Source of the DNA: Oscillatoria sp. FACHB-1406
GTDB lineage: Bacteria > Cyanobacteriota > Cyanobacteriia > Cyanobacteriales > Spirulinaceae
Direction: 5' to 3'
Assembly: GCF_014698145.1 (NCBI RefSeq)
Contig: NZ_JACJSM010000013.1
Location: 1-64,000 of the forward strand
Length of the DNA: 64,000 bases
Positions within the stretch are counted from its first letter, which is position 1, and every line of letters starts with the position of its first letter. Shown here piece by piece: positions 20,184 to 31,377 of this stretch. Position numbers and translations under genes: made by a program. The notes under the pieces were generated by a model. That model worked only from the letters and a program-made list of their open reading frames with translations, ran no database searches and had not been told where the DNA came from.

Positions 20184-23100
20184 ATGGAAATCGCGATCGC
20201 AAAACTCGCCAGTTCGGTAGCCAGTGCGGTGGCACCCCTTGCCGTTAAAACCGTACAAACCAAATTGAATCCGAGCGAAGTTGAAAAAGCCATTCGCGCC
20301 GGAATTGTTGCCGCCCGCGATCGCGAAGCCACTCTACCGCCCGAACAATCGCTCTTTTACCGCTCCGAACCGGATTTCGTCGATCGCTTCCTCCAGCAGT
20401 TTTTGAGTGGCGAAGGGGTGTTAAATGAGTTGGGCAAACCCTTGATCGGCGGCGATTTGCCCGATGTCGCATACTTGGCAAAAGAGTTCGCGCGATCGGC
20501 TGATAAAAACGACAAAATCGACTTACAAACTGCGGAAATCGAATCATGGCTCCAGGAATTTGTCAAGCATTATTTCCAGGGAACTAGCACTTACTTAAAA
20601 TTTCAGGTTGCAAAGGAAGACTATCTGCGGCAACTGTGCGAACAGTACGACGATGTAAAATTTGCCGGAATGCCCGTTGCCGGTCAAGAAAGCGAGAAAT
20701 GCGCCCAACTCGCCGAAATCTTCGTCATGCCTGATGTTATGGAGGAAGGGCGAGCGAACCGCTTCGAGCGCTTGTTAGAAACGTTTCCCGACCGTCAGGC
20801 GCAATTGTGGGAAGAACAGCGACAGCGCGCGATGCTCGAAAATCCCAGCACCGTAAAATATTCGGCGCGGGAACTCATTAAACGCGGCAGCAAAGCCGTT
20901 TTATTGGGTGCGCCCGGTTCTGGAAAAACGACGCTGACGGGGTATTTTGTCACCGTTTTTGCTCGCAATTGGCAGGATGAAATTAAGGAACTCGGATTCG
21001 ACCCCCAGCGCGATATCTTGCCCGTTCCCATTCGCATTCGCGACCTTGCACGCTTTCAAGACCTCAGCATCCTCGACTACCTCAAACAGAATGCCGAGAA
21101 AAGTTTGTGCGTGAAAACTTTGCCTGCCGGATTCTTTCAGCATTGGCTTGAGGACGGGCGCGCGTTGATTTTGCTCGATGGGTTGGATGAAGTCGCCAAC
21201 GAAGCGCAACGGTACAAAGTCGTGGAACGCATCGAGTGTTTTTTAAAGCAATTTGGCAGCAATCGCGCCCTGATTACCTCGCGTCCGGCGGGATATCGTC
21301 GCGACTTTTTTGGCACCGCAGAATTTCCCCACTTCGAGTTGCAGCCCTTCGATAAGGAAAAAATCGATGTCTTTATCGACCAGTGGTACAATAGCCGTTT
21401 TCCCGACCCGCGCGAAGCCGAACGGCGCAAAGCCAGCCTGCGGAAAGCGCTGGAAGAGAGCGAACGCCTGACGCGATTGGCAAGCAACCCCCTGCTGCTA
21501 ACGATTATCGTGCTGATTCACCGCTACCAGGCGATTTTACCGCGCGATCGCCACAAACTCTACGATAAAGCTGTCGAAACCCTGATAACCGCTTGGGATG
21601 CAAACAAAGAAATCAGCAGCGAAAAATCCCTGAAATATCTCAACTTAGACGACGTGCGGCGGTTGATGGAACGCCTCGCCTACTGGATTCACAGCCAAGG
21701 CGGAACCGGCGACGCAGAGGGCGGTACGCTGATTGACCGAGACGAGTTACTGGAGCAGTTGACCGCCGAAATCAAGCAGGTGGCGGGCGTGGAGCGGTAT
21801 AAAGCAGCGGAGGAAGCGAAGCGGTTTATAACTTTAGTGCGAGACAGAACCGGATTGCTCAACGAACAGGGACAAGATTGTTACGCCTTCGTCCATAAAA
21901 CCTTTCAGGAATATCTCTGCGCCCAAGAAATCCAGTATCGGCATGACGAGGAGGATTTTGAGGTCGTTATCGAACACATCCAAGAACACCTGCACGACCC
22001 GCACTGGCAGGAAGTTTTGCTTTTGCTCGTCGCCCAGCAGAAACCGAAGAAGGCAATTCGAGCGATTCGCGCGATTCTGGAACGGGGGAGCGAGTACGAA
22101 TGCTGGCTGCATCACGATTTGCTGTTTGCCAGTCGTTGTTTGGGAGAATTTTCCAAGGGATTGTTAGCGGCGGATGGGGCGTTGGTGGGGGAGATTTTGC
22201 AGCGTTTGGTGGCGTTGGAGGTGGATAAGCGAGTTGGGTGGAAGGTTGGAGGGCAGGTTTTTAAAGTTCTCTGCAAGTTGGGCGAGACGGAGTTGGAAGG
22301 ACAGGCGCTGAAGTTGTTGAAGGCGAGAAAAAGTGAGATTGGTAAGAGTAGATTGCAACAATATCAAGCCGCTCTTGGCGAAGAAGAGGTTGCTATTCAA
22401 GCCTTGCTATCCTGTTTCCAGGATAAGGATTCAAGCGTGCGCTGGAGGGCTGCGAATACTTTGGGGAAATTGAGAAACAGCAACCCTGCTGTCATCGAAG
22501 CCCTACTCAAATGCCTCCAAGATAAGGATCCAAGGGTGCGCTGGAAGACTGCGGAAGCTTTGCAGAATTGGGGAAACAGCAACCCTGCTGTCATCGAAGC
22601 CCTACTCAAATGCCTCCAAGATGAGCATCGACTCGTACGCTCGAGTGCTGCGGAAGCTTTGCGGAAATTGGGAAACAGCAACCCCGCTGTCATCGAAGCC
22701 TTACTCAAATGCCTCCAAGATGAGCATTCACTCGTACGCTGGAAGACTGCGGAAGCTTTGCAGAATTGGGGAAACAGCAACCCCACTGTCATCGAAGCCT
22801 TACTCAAATGCCTCCAAGATGAGCATCCACTCGTACGCTGGAAGACTGCGGAAGCTTTGCAGAATTGGGAAAACAGCAACCCCCCTGTCATCGAAGCCTT
22901 ACTCAAATGCCTCCAGGATAAGGATTCAAACGTGCGATCGAGTGCTGCGGGAGCTTTGGGGAAATTGGGAAATAGCAACCCCCCTGTCATCGAAGCCTTA
23001 CTCAAATGCCTCCAGGATAAGGATTCAAGCTTGCGCTCGAGTGCTGCGGGAGCTTTGGGGAAATTAGGAAATAGCAACCCCCCTGTCATCGAAGCCTTAC

Positions 23101-23465
23101 TCTCCTGCCTCCAAGATAAGGATTCAAGCTTGCGCTCGAGTGCTGCGGATGCTTTAGGGAATTTGGGAAACAGCAACCCTGCTGTCATCAAAGCTTTACT
23201 CTCCTGCCTCCAAGATAAGGATTCAAGCTTGCGCTGGAGTGCTGCGGAAGCTTTGGGGAAATTGGGAAACAGCAACCCCACTGTCATCGAAGCCTTACTC
23301 GAATGCCTTCAGGAGCCTTTATTGACCTCGAATGCTTTGGGGGAATTAGGCAAACAAAGCGATGTTATTCTTCCCGCCCTCGAACAGTGGTTGCAACAAT
23401 ACCAAGATACAGAATTTATCGGCGCTGGAATTGATGCGCTGTGGCAGTTGGTAGAGGAACAGTAA
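20184..23465 (+). CDS. NACHT NTPase with C-terminal HEAT repeats (NLR-like, probable defence protein)
   Basis: A 1093-aa STAND-type protein. An all-helical N-terminal region (1-235) has no recognised enzyme motif. The NACHT core has Walker A GAPGSGKTT (242-250), Walker B ALILLDGLDEVA (327-338) with the acidic NACHT extension, and the sensor ITSRPAGY (about 364-371). A helical winged region follows to about 735. The C-terminus holds about ten HEAT-like repeats; nine units of 33 residues beginning NSNP are almost identical. Bacterial NACHT proteins with such layouts are known in antiphage defence, where the repeats sense and the N-terminus acts, so the same role is inferred here. The effector type is unknown. 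Neighbours include a broken VapBC pair, XRE regulators and MITEs. Confidence 0.88.
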   Translation: MEIAIAKLASSVASAVAPLAVKTVQTKLNPSEVEKAIRAGIVAARDREATLPPEQSLFYRSEPDFVDRFLQQFLSGEGVLNELGKPLIGGDLPDVAYLAKEFARSADKNDKIDLQTAEIESWLQEFVKHYFQGTSTYLKFQVAKEDYLRQLCEQYDDVKFAGMPVAGQESEKCAQLAEIFVMPDVMEEGRANRFERLLETFPDRQAQLWEEQRQRAMLENPSTVKYSARELIKRGSKAVLLGAPGSGKTTLTGYFVTVFARNWQDEIKELGFDPQRDILPVPIRIRDLARFQDLSILDYLKQNAEKSLCVKTLPAGFFQHWLEDGRALILLDGLDEVANEAQRYKVVERIECFLKQFGSNRALITSRPAGYRRDFFGTAEFPHFELQPFDKEKIDVFIDQWYNSRFPDPREAERRKASLRKALEESERLTRLASNPLLLTIIVLIHRYQAILPRDRHKLYDKAVETLITAWDANKEISSEKSLKYLNLDDVRRLMERLAYWIHSQGGTGDAEGGTLIDRDELLEQLTAEIKQVAGVERYKAAEEAKRFITLVRDRTGLLNEQGQDCYAFVHKTFQEYLCAQEIQYRHDEEDFEVVIEHIQEHLHDPHWQEVLLLLVAQQKPKKAIRAIRAILERGSEYECWLHHDLLFASRCLGEFSKGLLAADGALVGEILQRLVALEVDKRVGWKVGGQVFKVLCKLGETELEGQALKLLKARKSEIGKSRLQQYQAALGEEEVAIQALLSCFQDKDSSVRWRAANTLGKLRNSNPAVIEALLKCLQDKDPRVRWKTAEALQNWGNSNPAVIEALLKCLQDEHRLVRSSAAEALRKLGNSNPAVIEALLKCLQDEHSLVRWKTAEALQNWGNSNPTVIEALLKCLQDEHPLVRWKTAEALQNWENSNPPVIEALLKCLQDKDSNVRSSAAGALGKLGNSNPPVIEALLKCLQDKDSSLRSSAAGALGKLGNSNPPVIEALLSCLQDKDSSLRSSAADALGNLGNSNPAVIKALLSCLQDKDSSLRWSAAEALGKLGNSNPTVIEALLECLQEPLLTSNALGELGKQSDVILPALEQWLQQYQDTEFIGAGIDALWQLVEEQ
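22400..23330 (+). repeat. 99-bp tandem coding repeats (HEAT units of the NACHT protein)
   Basis: Nine consecutive 99-bp units, each encoding NSNP-x-VI-x-ALL-x-CLQ followed by a variable loop (DKDSSLRSS, DEHRLVRSS, DKDPRVRWK and others). DNA identity between units is high even at silent sites, and variation is concentrated in the loop after CLQD and the following helix. Confidence 0.92.
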
Positions 23466-23479
23466 GTCACACCCAAACG

Positions 23480-23507
23480 GTAGGGACGTTGTATACAACG
23501 TCCCTAC
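23480..23507. repeat. 28-bp perfect palindrome (REP-like), copy 1
   Basis: The half-site GTAGGGACGTTGTA is followed by its exact reverse complement. It lies 15 bp after the NACHT stop codon. The same palindrome family surrounds the RAYT transposase gene at 30.7-31.4 kb. Confidence 0.95.
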
Positions 23508-30218: not shown

Positions 30219-30456
30219 AGAAGTTAAACGCAAACCCTTAGAATTTTACCTGTCGTTAAAGTATCCAATGTCCCTTTATCCTGAAGAGGATGGAGGATAT
30301 ACCGTTACAATTCCCGATTTACCTGGATGTCTTGCACAAGGCGATAGTCTTGAAGAAGCAATTGAAAATATTAATGAAGCCAGAGAGTTATGGATAGAAA
30401 CGGTTTATAGAAGTGACAAAAAAACGATTCCTTTGCCGTCGAGAACAATACGTTAA
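30205..30456 (+). CDS. HicB-like antitoxin 1
   Basis: An 83-aa HicB antitoxin. The partial RNase-H-fold core shows PMSLYPEEDGGYTVTIPDLPGCLAQGDSLEEAIENINEARELWIE, the standard HicB_like pattern, with a short basic tail in place of the DNA-binding helix of longer HicB proteins. It starts within the 3' end of hicA and should bind and inhibit that toxin. A second HicB-domain gene follows 16 bp later, so the locus encodes one toxin and two antitoxin-type proteins. Confidence 0.82.
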   Translation: MTQSKEVKRKPLEFYLSLKYPMSLYPEEDGGYTVTIPDLPGCLAQGDSLEEAIENINEARELWIETVYRSDKKTIPLPSRTIR

Positions 30457-30472: not shown

Positions 30473-30757
30473 ATGAAACTTCATTATGAAATCATTCTCT
30501 ATTGGAGCCTAGAAGATAGTGCTTACATTGCAGAAGTCCCAGAGTTGCCAGGTTGTGCTGCTGATGGGGACACCGATCGAGAAGCTTTACAGAATGTAGA
30601 AATTATCATGCAAGAATGGATAGAAACGGCAAAAGAGTTAGGACGAAAAATTCCAAAACCTCAAGGGCGTTTGATATCTGCTGAACTATTCGAGTCGGGT
30701 TATTCCTCCTGTAGAGACGTTGTATACAACGTCTCTACAGATACAACGTTGCTATGA
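30473..30757 (+). CDS. HicB-like antitoxin 2 with palindrome-encoded tail
   Basis: A 94-aa second HicB-domain protein: MKLHYEIILYWSLEDSAYIAEVPELPGCAADGDT, then EALQNVEIIMQEWIETAKELGRKIPKPQGRLI. The usual end of such proteins is a few residues after 'PxPxGRL'. Here the frame continues into the REP-like palindrome at 30709-30740 and reads CRDVVYNVST before a stop 17 bp beyond it. The tail is thus of mobile-repeat origin. Whether it still binds HicA or another toxin is open. An upstream in-frame ATG at 30413 overlaps hicB-1 and is less likely. Confidence 0.75.
   Translation: MKLHYEIILYWSLEDSAYIAEVPELPGCAADGDTDREALQNVEIIMQEWIETAKELGRKIPKPQGRLISAELFESGYSSCRDVVYNVSTDTTLL
30709..30740. repeat. REP-like palindrome, copy 2 (left flank of transposase, in hicB tail)
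   Basis: A 32-bp perfect palindrome; the half-site is CTGTAGAGACGTTGTA. It is read in frame by the second hicB gene and ends 37 bp before the RAYT start. Confidence 0.95.
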
Positions 30758-30777
30758 TGCTTTGAATTTAGTGCGCC

Positions 30778-31341
30778 ATGACAAAAACGATTCGGTTGCA
30801 GAATTGGGATTACCGAAATAATGGCTGGTATTTCGTCACGATTTGTACGCGCGATCGCGTTTGTTATTTTGGGGATATTGTGGATTGTAAAATGGAGTTA
30901 TCCGCGATCGGTAAAATAGCTCGGGCTTTTTGGCAAGAAATTCCTCAACATTCTCGTTATACCAGCCTTGACGCTTATGTTCTTATGCCCAATCATATCC
31001 ACGGAATTGTGATTATCGATCGCCCAGATAACAGTGGTAGGGACGTTATATATAACGTCCCTACCGAAATCTCTGCCGATCTTACTGAAGACGATTTTTA
31101 CCAGAAAATGTCGAAATTATCTCCAAAAGCGGGTTCTCTCAGTGTCATTATGCGCTCTTACAAAGCAGCCGTAAGTCATTCTTATCGTGAGAACGGCTAT
31201 AGTAATTTTGCGTGGCAGCCCAGATTTTATGAAAGCATTATTCGCAGCGAACGCGATTTAGAAAACATACAAAACTACATTGTCAATAATCCTGCTAACT
31301 GGTCGGAAAGTAAGGATAATCCGATAAACTTTGAAATGTAA
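30778..31341 (+). mobile_element. REP-associated tyrosine transposase (RAYT) gene
   Basis: A 187-aa single-strand DNA transposase of the Y1/TnpA-REP family. The N-terminus RLQNWDYRNNGWYFVTICTRDR is typical. The HUH motif lies in VLMPNHIHGIVII (about residues 68-80), and the catalytic tyrosine is one of those in RFYESIIRSERDLENIQNYIVNNP near the end. Residues GRDVIYNVPT (about 86-97) are encoded by a complete copy of the REP-like palindrome inserted in frame between the HUH region and the C-terminal helices. Palindromes also sit on both flanks. RAYTs are thought to mobilise such palindromes, usually as single-copy domesticated genes. Confidence 0.9.
31036..31065. repeat. REP-like palindrome, copy 3 (inside the transposase gene)
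   Basis: A 30-bp perfect palindrome with half-site GGTAGGGACGTTATA, inside the RAYT coding sequence and in frame (reads G-R-D-V-I-Y-N-V-P-T). Confidence 0.95.
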
Positions 31342-31349
31342 AAATACTC

Positions 31350-31377
31350 GTAGAGACGTTGTATACAACGTCTCTAC
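31350..31377. repeat. REP-like palindrome, copy 4 (right flank of transposase)
   Basis: A 28-bp perfect palindrome with half-site GTAGAGACGTTGTA, starting 8 bp after the RAYT stop codon. It is identical in sequence to the core of copy 2. Confidence 0.95.

Follow-up and report, generated by a model that had tools for sequence, protein, structure and literature searches.

An in-frame REP inside a tnpAREP gene has already been published for TnpAREP subclass 2.4, according to the main text of that study (PMC6006769). In cyanobacteria, GTAG REPs of the GTAG-12, GTAG-15, and GTAG-16 families are dispersed, with some copies located within ORFs, and RAYT genes are flanked by REPs (PMC3733652). The spread of REPs, and the joint shift in specificity of a RAYT and its REP family, are open questions. 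A REP that is locked in the coding frame of its own transposase is an alignable copy, and its history can be followed. Here, we describe such a copy in a 64,000-nt stretch (hereafter, the window) of Oscillatoria sp. FACHB-1406 (contig NZ_JACJSM010000013.1, positions 1 to 64,000), together with its counterparts in related RAYT genes. At these RAYT loci, palindromes change pairwise and in concert with one another, in some cases contrary to the majority type of the genome.

The RAYT (TnpAREP) gene (30778..31341, + strand) encodes a protein of 187 aa, in which NHIH occupies residues 72–75, WQ residues 146–147, and the tyrosine of YIVNNP is Y167. The original prediction of a RAYT was supported by these HUH, WQ, and Y motifs, by a match of the ORF to PF01797 (Y1_Tnp), and by the structural match to 4er8: when the AlphaFold2 model of the protein (mean pLDDT 86) was searched using Foldseek, the top solved structure was this REP-bound RAYT. 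The score against the RAYT model NF047646 was 65.3 bits, which is under its cutoff of 80. The protein has the expected features, namely the HUH motif, one catalytic Tyr followed by N/Q at the fourth position after it, and the Y1 fold, and its NHIH, WQ, and YIVNNP motifs show no variation across 24 relatives. Two further RAYT-like ORFs, more distant from this one, are present in the same genome.

The pattern GTAGRGACGTTRYATRYAACGTCYCTAC matches the window at four sites (23480–23507, 30711–30738, 31037–31064, and 31350–31377), with a mean of 0 matches in 100 dinucleotide shuffles of the window, and the four perfect palindromes of the original prediction were thereby confirmed; they belong to one REP family. 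All four copies carry GTAG...CTAC at their ends (double foot). At the RAYT locus, the perfect palindromes span 30709–30740 (32 bp), 31036–31065 (30 bp), and 31350–31377 (28 bp). In the whole genome (5.47 Mb, 42 contigs), GTAGRGACGTN8ACGTCYCTAC is present in 89 copies and the reversed control pattern in none; together with the shuffles, these counts exclude a chance palindrome. The GTAG REPs flanking the RAYT gene belong to this dispersed family; the palindrome is probably cognate to the RAYT, as had been proposed. The copies had also been described as near-identical, but the in-gene REP is a GGG/ATATAT variant, whereas the flanking REPs are GAG/GTATAC.

A longer repeat, gaaattatct-REP-aggcgattttt...cttatttca, encloses approximately one-fifth of the genomic REP copies examined (L002, L003, L155, L156, L158, L168, L171, L179, L180, and L181), so that part of the REP copy number would derive from the spread of a larger element. 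In addition, three REPs are arrayed within 360 bp at G000:C2:194174-194530 (L010–L012), and an almost identical stretch of 25 bases, gcagggttaggaatttggtggagcg, follows each of them.

The flanking REPs bracket the RAYT gene at the predicted distances. The downstream copy (31350..31377, + strand; perfect 28-bp palindrome) lies 8 bp past the RAYT stop. The upstream copy (30709..30740, + strand; perfect 32-bp palindrome) lies 37 bp before the start, but not in a free intergenic gap: it is in frame in the tail of an ORF for a HicB-like antitoxin (30473..30757, + strand; 94 aa), which extends across the REP as CRDVVYNVST. The closest homologues of this ORF are open frames of approximately 70–81 aa, and the upstream REP is read in the same REP phase as the in-gene REP of the RAYT. 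A second HicB-like match is located just upstream, at 30256–30444. The fourth, dispersed copy (23480..23507, + strand) was found where it had been reported, after the NACHT gene, approximately 15 bp past the end of that ORF at 23465. This gene (20184–23465) encodes a protein with an N-terminal NNH2 domain and C-terminal HEAT repeats.

The in-gene REP (31036..31065, + strand) is a perfect 30-bp palindrome, GGTAGGGACGTTATATATAACGTCCCTACC, which is translated as GRDVIYNVPT. As predicted, it preserves the frame and is placed past the HUH motif but ahead of the C-terminal helices: the peptide corresponds to residues 87–96, after NHIH and before WQ and YIVNNP, and the frame is open throughout. At the nucleotide level, the element is predicted to fold into a hairpin of 13–14 bp. 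In the AlphaFold2 model, a strand (73–80) is followed by an unstructured segment (81–103) and a helix (104–114), with pLDDT values below 50 at residues 88–94. The insert is therefore predicted to lie in a low-confidence loop outside the folded core, a position where it would be tolerated. We surveyed the gene context of 49 of the 89 REP copies, all of them away from the RAYT locus, and none of the 49 was convincingly located inside a gene. A stop-free frame ran across the REP in 7 of the 49, 6 of which had no Pfam match; in the seventh, an AAA ATPase (L007), the conserved domain and its Met start lie approximately 20 codons past the REP. General insertion of REPs into genes is thus not seen among these copies of the same genome.

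Relatives were gathered from the same order and from other phyla, and 158 were compared with the window RAYT, giving a survey set of 159 distinct intact RAYT ORFs. A palindrome was present in the interval between HUH and W in 92 of the 159 ORFs, before HUH in 1, and after W in 2; a palindrome had to exceed a score threshold to be included, so that decayed copies are tallied as absent in these numbers, and because the sample was picked by similarity to the window protein, the fractions do not extend to RAYTs at large. The GTAG foot was in phase 0 in 50 cases, in phase 1 in 22, and in the phase that creates a TAG stop in none. Several loops showed further changes: in L023 and L054, the centre of the in-gene REP is broken by another in-frame insert; L091 has a second REP-derived segment ahead of WQ; and in L079 the left arm occurs in three tandem repeats.

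The clade around the window RAYT comprises 32 members, most of which contain a REP or a decayed remnant in the same loop. In eight relatives, GTAG lies exactly 34 nt past HUH in phase 1, compared with 31 nt, also in phase 1, in the window. The tree distances between these relatives and the window RAYT are 0.8–1.1, approximately one substitution per site in the proteins, and the same loop position and frame of the element are found in relatives of 55–60% identity. The suggestion of a private or recent self-insertion is contradicted by these relatives. Neither is the segment an ancestral peptide unrelated to the REP, since in most orthologues the corresponding peptide (e.g. CRDVPWNVST, CRDVACNVST, or RRDVACYVST) is encoded by palindromic DNA of other sequence, and L035, L072, L188, and L189 lack it altogether. 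L074 also codes for the peptide corresponding to GRDVIYNVPT. In the four members that lack the element, the loop is shorter, and the in-gene copies of L052, L054, L023, and L067 are decayed or interrupted; those of L052 and L054 are versions of the same segment. The element can thus be lost, or else was gained on more than one occasion. For L035, a fresh interruption of the RAYT by a REP was considered and rejected: its upstream frames belong to an unrelated gene, and it is only a truncated RAYT. Taken together, the simplest reading of these alignments is an old insertion in the subclade of the window, with some losses. Other subclades have the foot in phase 0 and at other offsets, and at least 10 phase changes are required on the tree; it is therefore likely that, across the whole RAYT family, a REP was inserted more than once.

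The arms of the in-gene elements change together. When 11 distinct in-gene elements from the window's subclade were compared, both sides had changed in 6 of the 13 stem pairs, whereas a one-sided change that keeps pairing was found in none of the 13; the pairing of these elements is 93.7%, compared with 79.9% after shuffling. In L020 and L055, the foot itself is doubly changed from GTAG/CTAC to GGAG/CTCC, a sequence that is not in the REP pool. Over the whole survey, the in-gene stems are at least as often perfect as the flanking stems (56/92 versus 54/116). G-T mismatches, which RNA stems tolerate, were not more frequent than A-C mismatches (13 versus 21), so that there is no sign of constraint on the sense-strand RNA; RNA-level covariation was rejected on these counts. 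This pattern favours paired change at the DNA level, for example by template switching, which has been argued to be able to create and keep stems (PMC8794818), over selection on an RNA hairpin. Selection on single-stranded DNA would be compatible with the same mismatch pattern.

The in-gene REP also tends to match the REPs that flank its own gene. In the inner arm, the identity to the own flank was 0.85 and 21 of 58 comparisons were perfect; when flanks were permuted between loci, which takes no account of relatedness, the identity was 0.56 and 1.8 were perfect. We also compared 23 disjoint nearest sister pairs, in place of per-site independent-pair tests on the tree, for which there were too few pairs. 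The own flank was the better match in 11 pairs and the flank of the relative in 2, the other 10 pairs being tied (p = 0.022), which lends modest support to flank matching. L049 and L051, which are 83–89% identical around the element, have three paired differences, and the same three are found in the gene and in the flanks. Few genomes showed a local match that departs from the genome majority: in G154, the type common to the in-gene and flank copies accounts for 3 genome copies, 2 of them at the RAYT, among 125 REPs, and the RAYT-locus type accounts for 3 of 19 copies in G281 and 3 of 12 in G095. The window itself runs counter to this pattern: four bases (two pairs) separate its in-gene REP from both flanks, and the in-gene REP is of a minority genomic type, whereas the flanks are of the majority type; flank matching is thus imperfect. 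The close relatives L217 and L219 look as if their variants had been swapped, since each has as its in-gene type the flank type found in the other.

The best explanation, which we consider somewhat more probable than not, is that the in-gene element is an old REP residing in a loop that tolerates it, and that its palindromy is preserved by paired DNA changes and by exchange with neighbouring copies at the locus of a cis-acting RAYT. According to this scenario, an ancestor of this cyanobacterial RAYT lineage would have acquired a REP in the surface loop that follows the HUH strand, in one of the two frames in which the GTAG foot is not read as a TAG stop. Single ancestry is proposed for the window's subclade, from the shared loop and the mostly shared offset and frame. 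Changes in both arms, through template switching in the hairpin and exchange with flanking or dispersed REPs, may then have maintained the palindrome. A RAYT that acts mainly in cis, on the single-stranded DNA of its own locus, would explain why REPs are found on both sides of the gene as well as within it. A different history, in which no part of the gene except the loop tolerates inserts and the loop is hit again and again by the cis-acting RAYT, so that each lineage has its own copy, fits the two frames, the many offsets, and the phase changes noted above, as well as the members without the element that are nested among members with it and the close relatives with different REP variants. 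The eight relatives from the window's subclade whose offset and frame are identical, and the elements of L020 and L055, which are off the REP consensus yet still palindromic, argue against it, and we regard repeated independent insertion as rather unlikely, though by no means negligible. The original prediction of a self-insertion that would change or regulate the transposase, taken as a recent event private to this genome, draws on the perfect palindrome of an 89-copy family, but is very improbable given the relatives that carry the element at the same loop position and in the same frame.

A regulatory role under selection is possible. The in-gene REP could be an operator, whose hairpin in single-stranded DNA or mRNA is bound by the RAYT and thereby limits expression or marks the gene, and which co-evolves with the specificity of the enzyme and with the flanks. 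Its wide occurrence at one site, its match to its own flanks, the quality of its stems relative to the flanking ones, and the strong predicted hairpin are all consistent with such a function, as is the binding and cleavage of REP hairpins by the E. coli RAYT (PMC3733652; structure 4er8). Nevertheless, several clade members with an intact RAYT ORF have lost the copy or contain a decayed one, the mismatches show no G-T excess, and the flanking REPs might already serve the purpose; we therefore find this explanation doubtful. Similarly doubtful is the proposal that selection maintains the in-gene REP, matched to its flanks, as a co-evolving part of the transposase gene, making the own gene or transcript a built-in substrate or operator, with locus and enzyme shifting specificity together. 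An in-frame copy whose history can be followed opens cis action and template switching, as well as gene conversion, at REP loci to direct tests.

Compared with known systems, the window REPs share with the GTAG-12, -15, and -16 families the GTAG-tagged, dispersed palindromes and the flanked RAYT (PMC3733652); they differ in being fully double-footed palindromes. Rickettsia palindromic elements (RPEs) are likewise palindromes of a mobile family that are translated in frame in proteins, but they occur in many unrelated genes (PMC3733652), whereas the only convincing internal copy of the window REP, among those examined, is in the gene of the RAYT itself. The E. coli RAYT (PDB 4er8) shares the HUH-Y1 fold, with REP-hairpin binding belonging to the E. 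coli protein; it is only approximately 20% identical, is shorter, and has no reported REP within its gene. The closest counterpart is TnpAREP subclass 2.4 (Bertels group 4), which, as described in the main text of PMC6006769, has the motifs NH[IFV]H, WQ, and YIxNNP, a length near 194 aa (187 aa in the window), a variable insertion between beta3 and alphaC (the unstructured residues 81–103 of our model), double-footed REPs with GT[AG]G and C[TC]AC at their ends (GTAG...CTAC in the window), and an in-frame REP between HuH and Y, as at 31036–31065. This subclass also occurs in Cyanobacteria, and nothing essential differs. By its motifs and length, its loop, its double-footed REPs, and the REP within the gene, the locus is a REPtron of the subclass 2.4 type, to which the fixed offset, the paired changes, and the flank matching described here add features beyond those discussed in the main text of that study.
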